Assembly: GCA_012932865.1 (NCBI GenBank)
Contig: SAXG01000103.1
Location: forward strand, 1-64,000
Direction of reading: 5' to 3'
Length of the DNA stretch: 64,000 nucleotides
Origin: Amylostereum areolatum
Taxonomy: Eukaryota > Basidiomycota > Agaricomycetes > Russulales > Stereaceae
Below are positions 3,297-61,158 of the stretch, piece by piece. The notes beneath the pieces were generated by a model. It was not told where the DNA came from and did not search any database. It saw only the letters and a list, made by a program, of their open reading frames with translations. Position numbers and translations under genes: made by a program. How positions within the stretch are numbered: position 1 is the first letter of the stretch; each line of letters begins with the position of its first letter.

Positions 3297-3304
3297 TACT
3301 AGAT
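3297..3304. repeat. Left target-site duplication (TACTAGAT)
   Basis: TACTAGAT directly precedes the base where similarity to the orphan copy at 54872 begins. The same 8 bp follow the right end at 9576-9583. Confidence 0.7.
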
Positions 3305-3623
3305 TAGTCTCCCCAAGGCAGACGAGATATTTCGTCAACACTTCTCAGGCTCAGGATCCTCTTATCTGGCGTCTGCTTTCATTACGGTGGTTGTTACCGA
3401 GTGTCAAAGGGAGCGTGATTAGCGCGCGTTGCCGGAGCTCGGCAGGTCATGTGCATAGGTTTTATTATAACCAAAAATAACCGATAAGAGGACATGTCAG
3501 TTTTATGAGTTGACGCCGAACTCGCCATCAGCACCGCGCAAAGTTGGCGCAAGGTAATCCTGCTTCAGAAGAGCACTTATGCTCAGAACACTTTCTTTTT
3601 TATTTATACTATGGATCCTACTA

Positions 3624-6218
3624 ATGTCTGCTAGACAAAATGCTCGGAACTTTGATTGGACATCTCCTGAAGGCCTTGAAAAAATCAAAGCTGCTGTTGC
3701 TCCTCACATTGACTTTCCTCTCCGAGAATTCCAGCTCTACAACTCCGCATGCATCCTAAATGGACAGAATGTATTCTGTATCACTGCAACAGGGGACGGG
3801 AAGTCAGCGCTGATTTATGTGCCAGCCATTGTACAAAGGGAGATGGTCACCATTGTCATTGAACCTACCAACTTTCTTGAGCGAAGCTTGGTACGGATTA
3901 CCCTTTACGACTGTTAGTATCACTCAACCCAATTTTAGGCAATGAACACAGACCGAAAGGGTGTAACTTCACTAGTTATCAACAGTGATACACTAGCAGC
4001 TGCATCTTTGACTGGACGAAACCTGTGGCAGGAGGTCAAGGAGTGTCGGTACCAGGTCGTAACACTGGCACCGGAGTCCCTACAAACGGAGAAGTTTAAA
4101 GAGCTGATAAAGAATGAGCTTTTTTGTTCGCGATGGCGCGTACTCACCGTGGATGAAGCCCATCTCTCCGACCAGTGGGGATCAGAATTCCGTCCGCTTT
4201 ACAAGGAGATCAAAACCATCCATTCGCTCGTCCCAAACCTCACCTTGGTGGCATTATCGGCTAGTGTTGAACCGGGAGCTCAAACCAGGCGCATCTGCGA
4301 GAACCTCGGGTTCGATGAAGGAAGGTTTCGCTTCGACAAACGAGATACGCGGCGCATGAATGTCGACATGATCTTCCGCTATGTGATGCACACATACACC
4401 AGCAGCGTTTTCCGAGACCTCGACTGGTTAATACTGGCAACTATGGTGAAGGCAACCGACATACCCAAACGTCTGGTCTACTGCCCAACCATCGAGCTCG
4501 GGCACCGCGTCACATCCTATCTCCGGTCATTACTCCCTGCTTCTCTTCAGCCACAAGCCCGGATCCTCATTCGGCACCTACACTCCGTTTGCTGCCCAGA
4601 GTGCAAGAAGGAAGGCCTGGAGTCGCTTTTCCGTATGGAGCCAGATCGCGACACGTCGATCTTCGTCACAACAGCCATCCTAGACGTTGGTGTGGACCCT
4701 CCAGATGTACGCGAAACCATCGAGTTTCCAACAGGAACAAGCGCGGCGGCCTCGAAGCAACGAATGGGGCGAAACGTGCGGAATGTTGAAGGACGAGGGA
4801 AGGCATATGTCTACGTCAAGAAAGCTGTTGTCGAAACGGCTCGGGAGTACGCACAACAAGACATACCGGACCCGCGGATGTTACCCTTGCGTTCCAAAGA
4901 ACCTGCAGAGGGAGATGTCGAGATGTCGGGAGCACCTGAACAATGCGGGCCTTCTCGTTCTGACACTGAGTCGCAGAATGCAGGGGAGGACATGATGGAC
5001 ATTGACGAGGAAGACGGCAAGAAGCGCGATCAATCTCAATGCCTGCGTGTGACCACAAAGTCAAAGGGCGATTCCCGGACTCAAGTTCCCTCCACTCCTT
5101 CCACCTCTACATTCAAAGGCCTCGACAAGTCATTCCTTCTTCTTGTCGCCGCTCATATACGCGGTACTTGCATCTCACGGCAAATGAACATAATCTATGG
5201 CGACCCCGGGATCTCGGAGAACTGTGGCACATGCAGCTCGTGCGCAGGTGACATCGTACCGGAGCCACGCCCGCTTGACGAATCAACGGCCAAACAGAAA
5301 CCCCTCAAACTAGCAGACGAGAGCTGTAAGTGGGAACGGCTCAAACAAGAGGACAGCAAGCATGTCACATCGGAGCTTCGTCGAGCGACCCCCCATCTGA
5401 TGCTTTCCCCCCCTTCTCCACCTCTCTCTGTCCTACCAGACACGGCACTCCCAGATCCTTCGACCACGCAACCGCCGCCGCCACTGCCGCGCCCACTCGA
5501 ACTCAGTTGGATCGACGACGCATGCTTCCTTTCGGACAATGACATTGCGACGATGATCATACCACGATTCCATCAACTTCAAACTCGCAACGATCTTGCG
5601 GAACGGATGCGAGGGTGGGAATGGTGGAACTTATATGGTGAAGGGCTTTGGCAAGTGGTGAAACCACTCGTTATCGAGATGCGCCGGCGAGTTGAGGATA
5701 GGCACACTGAAGAGAAGCGGAAACGGCGGACGACCGAGGCAGCGAAGCGTGCACGCAAGGATGAGGAAGACACTCACGATTACCTCGCTGCTCACAACCT
5801 CACAACCATCAAGCGGGTGAGATTGATAGTTCCAGAGCCTCCTCTCGAACAACCCCGTGCGTCCTATACTCTGTGCTCAGTAGTAACTCCTGCTAACTTT
5901 CAAATAGTGCATGGTGTGAAACGGGCGGTGGACACTCTCGATGAGATTGAGTACCCGCCCACAAAATCACCTCGTTGTTCCCCCATTCTCGGTACCATGG
6001 TGTGTGCTCTCGCCGTTCAAGGTGTTCATTTGCTGACCTTGAGGTAGATCCTTTCGCCATCTCGGAAGTCCAACATGACAGTTGTCACATCCACAGTTGT
6101 CGCATCCCCTTCTATCTCTACCCACCTTCCGAGAATCCCTGCTCCGACATTTCATCCTGCTATCGAAACTAAACCACGGCCACGACCACGACCCCGACCC
6201 GTAAAATCTCGTAAATGA
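3624..6218 (+). CDS. RecQ-family DEAH helicase of the mobile unit
   Basis: Exons 3624-3890, 3939-5856, 5908-5999 and 6048-6218 give 815 aa; the introns are 48-51 nt. The motifs appear in order: an RxFQ element near 34-37, Walker A TGDGKS (56-61), Walker B DEAH (161-164), SAS (196-198), a helicase C domain from about 265 with motif V near 335, and QRMGR motif VI (363-367). Cys500, 518, 521 and 524 match the RecQ zinc-binding subdomain, set in a sequence resembling CISRQMNIIYG. The rest of the C-terminus is Pro-rich and basic, and HRDC is not evident. RecQ proteins unwind DNA 3' to 5' using ATP. The last intron is inferred because splicing continues the frame into a basic tail; otherwise the protein would stop near 6047. 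The start at 3624 is preferred over 3579, which would add a hydrophobic extension. Confidence 0.88.
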
Positions 6219-6302
6219 ATACATCCATTTCCTGTACATAATTCATCACTTTACACTACACCCCTTCACTTTATCCCCACCATATCCTCTCCCACCACCC
6301 TA

Positions 6303-9300
6303 TCAGTCCTCGTCACTAGAGGACGACTCCTCACTACTACTAATAGCCTCCGCCCCGAATATATTGATGTCGTCGTTTGTGTCTTGTTCGTCATCGTCCC
6401 AATCGTCAGCCGCCACGAGAACACCATCAACAATCATGTTAGGTAGTACTCCCTGTGAGTTCTCTCCTTCCGCACGCTCGACGTCATCATCGACGGCAAC
6501 ATCTGTTGCATCTGCACCGTGGAGATCGCCAGCATCGCGGATGGTTCGCTCGATGAAGTCTTGGATTCGAGTGCCTGACTTGAACTTTTGGAACCCGGTC
6601 GCAAAGTCATCTTGAGCACGGCGGCCTGCACTACGGCCCTCGCAGAACTTGTGGATCTGAGCAGCTGCCATCTTCTTGCTGCCTTCGTTCAGGGCAGCCG
6701 CACGCCTTTTCGACCTGTGTACTTCACTCTTCGCCCCGAGCCGGACAGCCGATTTCATGGATTGAGTTGACAGGAGGAACGCGCGGATGTTGAGGGCTAC
6801 GATATTCTTGAAGAAGTCGCCTCCAAACGATGCATCGCGACGCTGTGACATCTGCTTGAGACGTTTGATGTTCTTCTCCTGCAGAAGGTCCATCGGGAAG
6901 TGGCATCCGATGTTACCAGTGAGATTACAGAGCCAATTGTTCATGATGGCGAGGCAGAGCTCTGGCGAGTATTCCATCAGGAAGTTGCACGCCAATTCAA
7001 GCAACTCGTTTGTGTACTTCGTCTTCCCGCAACCCATAAAGGTGAAGGTCCAGATCTACAGCATCTGTCAGCAAGGGCAGTCAATAGACAAAGGAGGTGT
7101 TCGCATACCGCCATAACATTCATCGCGTGCCCTATGTCACCATCGCTGATCGCCCACTGGAAGACATAGTGCCACATACTATCCCGCATGCGAAGAACCT
7201 CGTTGGCGAGAACTTGATCGCCGATGAAAGGGGATCTCTCGCCTGGTGGCACAGTATTGGCATCCTGTGTGACTGGAGGGTCACTTGGTGAAACAGATGC
7301 AGCGGTATCAGTCCCGGTGGCGGCGGCAGGGGGTGCCTCGGTCGGGATATTGTCTGGTGCGTCGAACTCCTTGAAGGCGTCCTCCGCCCCCGTCTCGCTG
7401 CCGTACCGAGCCCGCATAGCACCTTCCGTCCTGAGATAGAGTCTTGTGATCTCCGTAGCATTTTTGAGGAGATCATCGAACGTTGTCGGATGACTAGCGA
7501 AGTACGCATCGAGGTCTTTGACGCCGAGGTGGGTTCTTATCCAAGCACGATCAGTGTGTGCACGGTATCAGAAATGGCCAGGAAATACACACCTCCAACA
7601 GTCGATGATCGCGGCCATGAGGGTGTCGAAGACGAGATGTTGCGCTGGGTAGTAGTCCGGCCGTTTTGAGTTGGTCACCTTACGTCCGAAGATGTTGTTC
7701 ATCGCGACAAATGACGTGAGGTCACTGTGCGAGATCCCCCAATGGGTTGCAAGGATCCTTTCAAGATCAGCCCAGCCCATATGCCACAACTGAATCAAGG
7801 GCAGTACCCATCCGTAACGCTGGTATCCGTGCGGACAGTCGGCAAGGAATTTCTGAAGCGTACGAAGTTTCTCCACGGTGGACTGATCCCCCCCGACGAT
7901 AACCAGAAGCCGCGCAACCTCTTCTTTTGGCAAGTCGAGCTGGCGCAGGAGGAGGTCGTCGAGGACGTTCGCGTTCTCGCCTGTGTTGCCCTCGTTATAG
8001 CTGGAAGTGGCCATAGGATGTATCTTCGTCTTGCGACCGTCGGGCATGCGGTGCATGGCATGTGTAGTACGAATATGTCGGAGGATGGTTTCGCGGTGCT
8101 CGGCGAGGCAGGGAACAGCGTCGACGAGTATGTTGAGGCAGTGGAGAGCCATTACGGCCTCTAGCTTGTCCCATTTTATTTGCCCTCGGAGCTTGGCCAG
8201 TGTCAGCCCCCGACGACGCTCCTCGCGTTTTGCCGCAGCCAAAGCTTCCACGTCGAAGGCCTTGTGAATGTCGCAGTCCTCGAGCTCAACAAATGTTGCG
8301 GCGGTACCGTTATGAATGGTGTCCTTCTTTCCGAGCTCGGGGTTCCACGAGCGGGACATACGGTTGATGTTGTCGTATATGAGAAGGAACGCGCGGTGGG
8401 TTGCCTTCTCGCGCATTGCATTGATTGCCGATTGAGATAGGACTTGAAGAAAAGACAGGACGGACGTGTAAGACACGGAAAGTCCCAAGCGGCCGAGTAC
8501 AGCGTACATTCCGTGGGGAGCCGTGTGCGAGAACATCCATACGCCGACAATCCTCTGAAAGAGGTTGAAACGTCGGTTCCGCGCGTTCAACAGAACGAGA
8601 GCGGCCGCGAGGACCATCTGTAAATCCGGGTAGGTTAGTAAATGAAAAGCAAACAGAAGAGACGGCCGTGATCTCACCATGAAAGGATCGCGAGGGTTAC
8701 GGCCAGTCCCAGAAGAGATAGGCGTGGAAAAATGGCCGCTATATGAAGGTAGCCAGGAAGTAGAACCTGCGTCCCGATGCGGCCTGTTTTTGGCCTGGAA
8801 TGCGATGGCAATGAGGAGGCGGAGAAGTACGGGTGCTTTTTGTTGGATGTGGAGAAGGAAATCGTGCATTGAAAACCCGAGGACGGCTTCCCAGTTGCTT
8901 GTCGCACCCGATGACTGCAACCCGCCGGCCTTTGACGTTAGGTCGGAAGCCTCTCCGCTAACGATGTCTTCAACTTTCCCAATCGCCCAGTTAATGAGGC
9001 GCCACCGAGCCAAGAGTCGGTAATTACGGCGGGGGGCGTCGGCAGCCGTGCGATTTGCGGAAGTCCGGGTGCGACGAGGTTTGCTATATGGGTGATCGTA
9101 GATGAGGTCCGCAATCTCCTCGATCCGGGATGGCGTATTCTTGCGGCCTGCAAGAAGGGTACGGAGCATGGTCGTGCGTATTTTTGATTGCCTCGGGTCG
9201 CCCTTTTTGCATGGAAGAAGGAGTTCTTCAAGGAACTCAAAGAGCGTGAAGTTTTTACGTTTGATGTTCCTCAAGCAATCGTCCATCCGCTTCTGTCGTC

Positions 9301-9346
9301 CTTGAAGAGCGCGCTTGCTGTTTCGGTCGACGGCCTTTCGTGCCAT
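6303..9346 (-). CDS. DUF6589-type protein, candidate transposase
   Basis: Exons on the minus strand, 9346-8678, 8617-7593, 7535-7109 and 7055-6303, give 957 aa; the introns are 53-60 nt. I recognise the family from its conserved blocks: IYDNIN (Asp305), GGDQST (Asp467), LWHMGWADL (about 500-508), CWRTHLG (about 564), DGDIG (about 695), and NNWLCNLTG followed by MDLLQE (Glu767). The C-terminus is basic, then very acidic with a Ser/Glu/Asp run. The Asp-Asp-Glu spacing around beta-strand-like hydrophobic stretches would suit an RNase H-fold DDE nuclease, but this is my inference. DUF6589 is common in Agaricomycetes and has no established function. It is convergent with the RecQ gene and lies inside the same terminal repeats. 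Confidence 0.82.
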
Positions 9347-9575
9347 GGTAGAGATAGGCTGGGAGAGGGAGGAAAGACGATCACGGATGAAGGAGACGAT
9401 GCAATTGCGCGTTGATCGTTGATCAATTACGCAGATAATTAAGATACATAGCACAACATTAATATTCTCTGGCGCGTAAAGCAAGCCTTTGCACGCCTCG
9501 TTAAGGCCTCTTAGCCAGCCAATCAGCGAGCTCCCCCTATCACTCGACAAGCGCGTCGCGGAGAAAAGCAGACTA

Positions 9576-9583
9576 TACTAGAT
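9576..9583. repeat. Right target-site duplication (TACTAGAT)
   Basis: An exact copy of 3297-3304, abutting the right end of the element whose last bases are AGACTA. Confidence 0.7.
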
Positions 9584-54833: not shown

Positions 54834-54871
54834 GAGCGGAAGGAAGACGCGGATGGAATGCGAGGTTGGCC

Positions 54872-54926
54872 TAGTCTCCCAGAGGCAGACGAGATAATTC
54901 GTCAACACTTCTCGGGCTCAGGATCC
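54872..54926 (+). repeat. Orphan left end of the RecQ/DUF6589 element
   Basis: 55 bp identical at 51 positions to 3305-3359, with no gap. Similarity starts at the TAGTCT terminus and stops abruptly after GGATCC. The subterminal hairpin GACGAGATAATTCGTC is kept. No right end or 8-bp duplication was found nearby. Confidence 0.75.
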
Positions 54927-54969
54927 GGTTGGCCCACCTCGCGCACGTACTGAGTGTGACACTTTTCCC

Positions 54970-59476: not shown

Positions 59477-60441
59477 GCCTATCACCCCAAGTATCCCGAT
59501 AAACGTGTCCAAGTTACAAAGGAAGTTTGGCCTACCTTCCAAAACTTCTTGGAGGAATTCACTGTGGGCATTCGTGCGTATTCACTGCTTTCACGGGGCA
59601 TCACGACTAATCGATCAACACAGGGCCTTCTGGACGAGAACATGACACCGAGAAAGATGATAAAAATGACGATAAAGACGAGGACCGGAGCGAGGACGAA
59701 GTACCGGGAGAGGACAAAGACGGAAGTGAGGACAAAAATGCTAATAGCCGAGGTTTGTCCAAGAAACGCGAATGGCCCCAGAGACAATCGGACGACGGCA
59801 TGCGACGTCTGAGCAAGAAGTTCCGCCCCAGCCGCAACGCGCTCCCCCCAATGACAGAACCAAAGGTACGTCCTCACAATGACATATGTTCACACATCTA
59901 GAATGCAACAACACAGACCGAACCCGGGGACTTTTCGGTCTCCGTCAGAATCGACAGAGAGTCTGACGCCGTCCATAACGTAAATGACCATCACTCATTT
60001 TGTTACTCCATCACCTGACACCAACTCACATATCAGAAGTACTCAGGCTTTCCGATGTTCGCCCAGCACCAAGAGATAGAGAGGGAATGGATCCAAACTC
60101 ACACGCACGTTCACTGGCTCGTTCCACCACCGGAAGCAGTCAAAGACATCCGCAAGTACATATCGGGCGACAGCAGTGTCGTCATCGACAGTGCAGTGCA
60201 CCGATGGCTGCGAGACCGGAGGTGTTTCGACAGCGATGGAAAGCCTAGATGCTTGATACTGCCCTCCTTGGGCAAGGACCTGTATCGCGCTATGGTCATA
60301 GCTCACAAGGGACACAGCGGGAAAGATAAAACATGGAGGCGTCTCGAAGCCCATTGTCTTGGCCCATCCCGCTCGTTCGTGTACTTGTGGCACGACACGT
60401 GCCCGACTTGTCATCAAATTTCAAGCAGTGAGACCGATTAG

Positions 60442-61158
60442 GTATGTACAATCTATACGCATCATGATATGTTGCGACTGACTCGAGAACAGACTCGCCC
60501 GGCTGCGTACCCGTAAATATTGTTGTCGCTCGCGTCTCGTTCTCTCTTCAGGGAGGGAAAGAGGAAGCAAGGCAGTTTCGCCCTTGGGGCAACTTCCACC
60601 GTATACTAAATGTAACCATGAATGAAAGTGTTGGTACACTCAAAAAGTTCACTCATGACGATGGGGTAAGTTAGTAGTAAGTATTCGCATTCCGAAGTTC
60701 GTGGATCGCATCTCGGGCCCTTGGCAAGACACGACTATAATGTCAACGCGAGCAACCCAACACTGCTTCATCCCAGCCACAATCGCCGTGCTTGACGCAT
60801 GCATGTCTCCGGCCGCTCGAGATATGCACATCATCAGAAGCCGCACAGTTCCACCCGCGCAGTGCAAGTTAGAACAGTGATTATTTTCACGAGTTATCAC
60901 CCCGTGATTATAAACATCAATACGAGCCATTGGCCCAGCCCGATTGTGAGAGTAGTACCAGCAATACAAAGACCGCCAAAACACGTGTGGTAACCAATGA
61001 GTGAGAGTTATAGTAAGCGAGCGCATCGAAAGGGTATCGTGCAGCCAACAACCATCGTGAGTTCGTATTTGCCCTTAAAGTGCACGCCACATGCCGACGC
61101 TCACCCCGCCATGATGCCGACTCCTCCCTCCTCCCCCAACGACTTCTGGCAAAGTCAA
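60442..61158. other. Intergenic
   Basis: No gene is supported. Confidence 0.45.

Follow-up and report, generated by a model that had tools for sequence, protein, structure and literature searches.

Does a RecQ-like helicase gene that lies beside a gene of the DUF6589 protein family form part of a mobile unit, and if so, of which kind and with which way of moving? The question is raised by a locus near the left end of a 64,000 bp stretch of contig SAXG01000103.1 of Amylostereum areolatum (hereafter the window; C6 in our numbering of contigs). A preliminary description had proposed that both genes lie between exact 8-bp direct repeats, that both ends begin TAGTCT, and that the whole is an autonomous DNA transposon carrying its own RecQ helicase. 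Searches of the same genome (57.1 Mb, 182 contigs) bear this out: the element is real, a recently mobile autonomous transposon, as seen from its multiple copies, shared tips, 8-bp duplications, unoccupied sites and purifying selection on both genes. It is highly probable that we are dealing with an intact-looking cut-and-paste transposon that has a putative DUF6589 DDE transposase and a RecQ gene kept by selection, and that leaves scars by asymmetric excision.

The boundaries (Table 1) are as proposed, with the two target site duplications exact and the tips TAGTCT (3305-3310) and AGACTA (9570-9575) forming a 6-bp inverted repeat. Taken alone the pair of TACTAGAT words is weak evidence, as at least two matches occurred in 16 of 100 shuffles of the window, and it could be argued that two host genes are chance neighbours between chance repeats. 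The chance of this is virtually nil, being refuted by the shared tips, by copies with different duplications elsewhere in the genome, and by an unoccupied site. When the flanks were joined with one duplication and searched against the same genome, the window site was found unoccupied on C85, identical over 272/272 bp, which rules out the host gene pair. The observation as a whole is thus confirmed and goes beyond chance, since termini with 8-bp duplications recur genome-wide and an unoccupied site exists.

A BLAST search with the element as query found at least 46 matches in its own genome, a lower bound with 40 of 130 candidates scored. Two copies on C1 align with the window element from end to end at 78% identity and six further long copies align in pieces at 68-72%; no left end was seen in one of these six, L046. 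Among the two-ended copies 26/29 carry an 8-bp duplication, one carries 7 bp and two have exchanged 8-mers; for the long two-ended copies, the window element included, exact 8-bp duplications were found in 6/8. L039 and L040 (G000:C1:2627026-2641659) are 99.94% identical, in inverted orientation and approximately 2.1 kb apart. Outer and inner 8-mers correspond crosswise between the two (CCTGTGCT, GATGCGGG), which is the pattern that an inversion of the spacer by recombination between the copies should leave. A further five long copies (L041-L045) share 99.81-99.95% mutual identity and sit at five different 8-mers.

The same ends are also carried by short copies of 1,078 bp (one of 1,084 bp) with pairwise identities of 98.98-100%, which match the window element at 99% over 99 bp of the left end and at 92% over 79 bp of the right end, BLAST finding no similarity to it between these two ends. 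These non-autonomous derivatives are presumably mobilised by the window element. Thirty short-copy loci were examined: 21 were two-ended, 20 with 8-bp duplications and one with 7 bp, and nine were without a right end. Elsewhere, nested insertions appear to have split L030 and L038, given the distance between left and right tip along one strand (12,036 bp and 10,696 bp, respectively). At G000:C146:113779-113827 only 3 bp separate a right tip from a left tip on the same strand, as if a copy had inserted beside the end of another. A plasmid search gave no match and was uninformative.

Empty sites, which the preliminary description had suggested seeking in related strains, were found in the same genome for other copies as well as for the window element. 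Counterparts of L042 and L044 were identified on C181 and C168, respectively, at 96% identity, and reading the junctions showed one duplication in each; the L044 counterpart differs at 2/76 bases. The L042 counterpart (L093, G000:C181:94205-94290) contains nine additional bases, 4 bp beyond the right edge of the duplication. For L041, L043 and L045 no unoccupied counterpart was found in the same genome. Ten of the 21 two-ended short copies were searched, of which L048, L049, L052, L054 and L055 had spanning matches of at least 98% and L047 had a single one at 79%. Among the extracted locus sequences alone there was no unoccupied site, the sole junction-spanning match being that of an L049 flank to the sequence beside its own copy. 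Given these counterparts, the genome seems to contain alternative haplotypes or paralogous copies of the insertion sites.

The two genes are convergent, and the splice sites of both models were inferred from sequence, without transcripts. The RecQ-like gene (+ strand, three exons) encodes 774 aa with Pfam matches to DEAD (E 8.7e-14) and Helicase_C (E 1.1e-4; 22.8 bits, slightly below the cut-off of 23.5) and a Cys motif which we take to resemble the RecQ zinc-binding domain. A PDB search with residues 1-414 ranked RecQ1 first among the sequence relatives (E 1.1e-14), followed by RecQ, BLM, RECQ5 and WRN. The DUF6589 gene (− strand, four exons) encodes 957 aa and matches its Pfam family in two genomic pieces (E 4.1e-54 and 1.8e-26). 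Both genes are under purifying selection: comparison of the window with L039, the frames being open in both, gave an omega of 0.134 over the 769 codons of RecQ and of 0.098 over the 952 codons of DUF6589. In the comparison with L043 silent sites were saturated, and the exon ends mapped for L043 did not finish at a stop codon. Both genes are thus kept by selection and the helicase is not a recent passenger; it most likely unwinds the element ends or drives repair.

The DUF6589 protein is most likely a DDE transposase, nearest to Hermes/hAT and the P element. Its fold, read as RNase H-like with a helical insertion, resembles DDE transposases, with Hermes and the P element as best matches; a Foldseek comparison gave an E of 0.057, and D, D and E are conserved (putative catalytic residues D306, D468 and E707). 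A missing Foldseek or VIA match was not counted against any family. When 39 homologues were scanned with Pfam, DUF6589 was found in 39/39; no hAT family profile was found at E up to 1 (HMMER filters apply), nor a KDZ match, for which Pfam presumably contains a profile, and no THAP domain was found in these or in the element proteins. A protein search with an Exidia homologue returned at least 15 proteins, all DUF6589 and, where named, all fungal. In the literature searched there was no mention of DUF6589 by name and no published link between it and a transposase, and PF20231 was absent among the matches listed in a combined search.

The association of these genes extends across the genome, where tiling of exon hits gave at least 58 DUF6589 loci (112 hits) and at least 47 RecQ-like loci (58 hits), lower bounds in which the loci are not independent since recent copies are counted singly. 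The check proposed at the outset, for DUF6589 genes within 5 kb of a RecQ-like gene, was positive for 37/58 DUF6589 loci and 37/47 RecQ-like loci, with approximately 1% expected by chance. Thirty of these 37 pairs are convergent and seven divergent, so gene order varies among DUF6589 subfamilies. In Amylostereum chailletii a RecQ protein is 97% identical over 433 aa, and the contigs that carry it and a DUF6589 protein have the same reported length, 7,019 bp; in Phanerochaete sordida the contigs of the helicase PsYK624_086150 and of the DUF6589 protein PsYK624_086170 are each given as 425,539 bp long. A second DUF6589/RecQ family gave near-identical hits at seven places in the A. areolatum genome, its copies on C168 and C103 being 99.94% identical over 1,779 bp. 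Both copies were read at their two ends: one end shows the tip TAGACTCGAACCAGTCC and the opposite end its reverse complement, and the duplications are of 9 bp (CCCTATCCT, TTATATCAC; 2/2 copies read), so that, with 8 bp in the window family, DUF6589 transposons make 8- or 9-bp duplications. Tip coordinates place seven copies of exactly 6,764 bp of this second family on C23, C66, C95, C103 and C168, with a 17-bp tip repeat and ends able to form hairpins.

Table 1. Coordinates of the element, its genes and its solitary left end in the window.
Feature	Position	Strand	Remark
Left target site duplication TACTAGAT	3297..3304	.	present once at the unoccupied site on C85
Whole element	3305..9575	.	6,271 bp; from tips and genome BLAST; two full-length same-genome relatives align end to end at 78%
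Left end, 99 bp	3305..3403	+	99% shared with 1,078-bp non-autonomous copies
Subterminal GCAGAC, element position 14	3318..3323	+	in 4/4 sequences compared (window, L039, L043, L047)
Subterminal GTCTGC, element position 67	3371..3376	+	in 4/4 sequences compared (window, L039, L043, L047)
RecQ-like helicase gene, exon 1	3624..3890	+	splice model
RecQ-like helicase gene, exon 2	3939..5856	+	DEAH motif, QRMGRNVR motif, RecQ zinc-binding-like Cys motif
RecQ-like helicase gene, exon 3	5908..6047	+	splice model
DUF6589 (probable transposase) gene, exon 4	6303..7055	-	splice model
DUF6589 gene, exon 3	7109..7535	-	splice model
DUF6589 gene, exon 2	7593..8617	-	YDN and GGDQ motifs
DUF6589 gene, exon 1	8678..9346	-	splice model
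Right end, 79 bp, tip GCAGACTA	9497..9575	+	92% shared with 1,078-bp non-autonomous copies
Right target site duplication TACTAGAT	9576..9583	.	exact repeat
Duplication GGTTGGCC, left of solitary left end	54864..54871	.	exact 8-bp repeat
Solitary 55-bp left end	54872..54926	+	92.7% to 3305-3359; without right end
Duplication GGTTGGCC, right of solitary left end	54927..54934	.	exact 8-bp repeat

How the element moves is suggested by left ends that stand alone. A second locus in the window had been described as sharing exactly the left 55 bp; it does share these from the first base, but at 51/55 positions rather than exactly. The same solitary left end (window 54872-54934, L074, L080, L081 and L084) lies inside a larger repeat of at least five copies with flanks identical as far as read. 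A tip search allowing up to two mismatches found 90 left against 37 right tips, which is no fair ratio since subfamilies that have different right tips are picked up by the left pattern too. Sequence was read for 59 of the 90 left tips, of which 30 count as unpaired: the window locus, the nine short copies lacking a right end, and another 20, read 85 bp inwards only, that were selected because no right tip was listed nearby. In 13 of the 30, an exact second copy of the eight bases that precede the tip is found 51-66 bp inside, and resemblance to the left end breaks off at that point; for L088 and L090 this point was assessed by eye, with their own subtype as reference. Five of the 13, the window locus included, have identical flanks and therefore represent one event, leaving nine independent events of 51, 55, 58, 58, 59, 61, 61, 63 and 66 bp.

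In a control in which flanks were swapped between loci, 0/850 pairs gave an exact hit, and 30/850 gave a duplication with one mismatch; duplications of the latter type were accordingly dropped, so that L087 (49 bp) and L059 (66 bp), with imperfect repeats, are only probable solitary left ends and a hit of L062, inside a short copy, was discounted. For 15 of the 30 unpaired tips there was no credible duplication 30-85 bp inside. Truncation after insertion is ruled out for the nine events by the exact duplication at the truncation point, and is retained for the short copies L056, L062 and L036, which are cut at 1016, 931 and 699 bp with no duplication there. Six of the nine finish in TA, a dinucleotide that is absent from the left end at that point and with which the right tip terminates; the T may be templated in approximately three of the six. 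Four solitary sites were searched for unoccupied counterparts: L057 (51 bp) has them on C13 (300/300) and C2 (99%), L059 has spanning matches at 90-91% with junctions unread, L058 has one at 71%, and for L064 no counterpart was found. The longest solitary left ends finish just short of the inner GTCTGC, and this word is the same as that in the right tip read inwards (TAGTCTGC); the right-tip word is present in the window element, L039 and L047, with GTAGAC in its place in L043. Element positions 14-20 and 66-72 of the left end form an inverted repeat, seen by eye, and folds were run with RNA parameters.

We read the solitary left ends as scars of asymmetric excision. At insertion, the putative DUF6589 transposase would cut and join, giving the duplications observed, while the helicase may open the ends or assist repair. 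At excision, the left flank would sometimes retain 51-66 bp of the left end and the right flank approximately 2 bp (TA) or nothing, and trimming after a long, staggered, asymmetric and P-element-like cut, placed next to the inner GTCTGC approximately 66 nt inside the left end and approximately 2 nt inside the right, would yield the scar lengths observed. A tentative proposal, rather unlikely as a whole, is that DUF6589 transposons form a superfamily with the hAT/P fold whose own RecQ opens approximately 66 nt of the left end, allowing extremely asymmetric donor cleavage (approximately 66 nt inside the left end at the inner GTCTGC, and approximately 2 nt at the right) and hence one-sided scars. 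No such cleavage geometry was met in the literature searched, as far as its text was accessible, including by searches aimed at cuts, footprints or solitary ends. The P element transposase is described as cutting the two strands 17 bp apart, the first at the tip and the second within the element (PMC7776569), a 17-nt stagger at each end, whereas the remnants of the window family are one-sided and 51-66 bp long.

The main rival to an asymmetric cut is aborted gap repair, which we regard as quite possible though short of an even chance. Here excision would be clean, the left flank would invade a sister copy, copy approximately 50-66 bp and be joined to the right flank, giving the same product. 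Synthesis could be stalled by the inverted repeat of the left end, and Bloom is a RecQ helicase. The part of the P element report available describes Bloom as taking part in repair after excision (PMC7776569), and a RecQ helicase is thus known to act at this step. Against it, copying would need to be from the left only and within a narrow tract (51-66 bp in the nine exact events), and right-end-only copies look rare (C161 and one of C146), although no search was aimed at right-only products. It is improbable that the solitary left ends are true micro-insertions, i.e., fragments of 50-66 bp inserted by the transposase; the perfect 8-bp duplications and the unoccupied counterparts of L057 suit this view, but the fragments have nothing of the right end except TA, so a second end would have been used without recognition, and seven different lengths among nine events argue against one amplified mini-element.

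As to its relatives, Kolobok elements target TTAA, Helitrons encode a Rep/helicase protein and make no target duplication, and the AcademH paper is reportedly Kojima 2020. The claim that no described transposon has this pair was too strong, given that RecQ-encoding fungal Academ elements and the helicase-encoding AcademH and KolobokH lineages are in print (PMC6416283, PMC10045372, PMC9587614), according to the portions of these papers and of those cited below that were available. Fungal Academ copies encode a DEAD/DEAH helicase assigned to recQ_fam (PMC6416283), and AcademH, with duplications of 9 or 10 bp against 3 or 4 bp in AcademX (PMC10045372), is reported at low copy from Basidiomycota, Ascomycota and Mucoromycota (PMC10799480). 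The window element likewise carries a gene for a RecQ-family or SF2 helicase. It works in the manner of the helicase-encoding AcademH lineage and probably belongs to the Academ transposons that encode a helicase, or stands close to them, its duplications being of 8 bp. It is likely that it is a plain member of AcademH, with DUF6589 as the AcademH transposase and 8 bp as variation within the lineage; the helicase of fungal Academ, the occurrence of AcademH in Basidiomycota and the 9-bp duplications of the second family favour this. We have not filed it there because its duplications are 8 bp, against the 9-10 bp described for AcademH.

KolobokH is also a fungal DNA transposon with a RecQ helicase, there located downstream of the transposase domain (PMC9587614). 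It is ruled out by the separate convergent genes of the window element and by 8-bp duplications without TTAA. Helitrons are ruled out by the duplications and the gene layout, and a Rep/helicase protein was not met. Duplications of 8 bp are shared with hAT elements and with Zisupton/KDZ, the latter found in Agaricomycetes (PMC12730594); the window family differs from both by its RecQ gene and by the Pfam results for the homologues, and from the P element by having its own helicase and no THAP domain found by Pfam. Helicase-bearing fungal transposons are therefore already known; what look new are the one-sided remnants and the part that DUF6589 is likely to play.

Two further features of the window were observed. 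Positions 707-878 and 2369-2540 are 86% identical, a local gene duplication whose frames look by eye like short-chain dehydrogenases, and a frame at approximately 60100-60480 with a HKGHSGKDKTWRRLEAHC...CPTCHQ motif looks, again by eye, like a retrotransposon integrase zinc-binding domain.

These findings give physical boundaries and a likely function, that of a transposase, to DUF6589, a Pfam family of unknown function. Since a single Agaricomycete genome contains at least 58 DUF6589 loci, it is probable that many mushroom gene models of DUF6589 or RecQ-like type now labelled 'hypothetical' belong to transposons. The question of why RecQ helicases recur in fungal transposons becomes testable: end cutting or repair has left its record in the genome as one-sided remnants, and the near-identical copies and unoccupied sites suggest that the system was recently active enough to assay.
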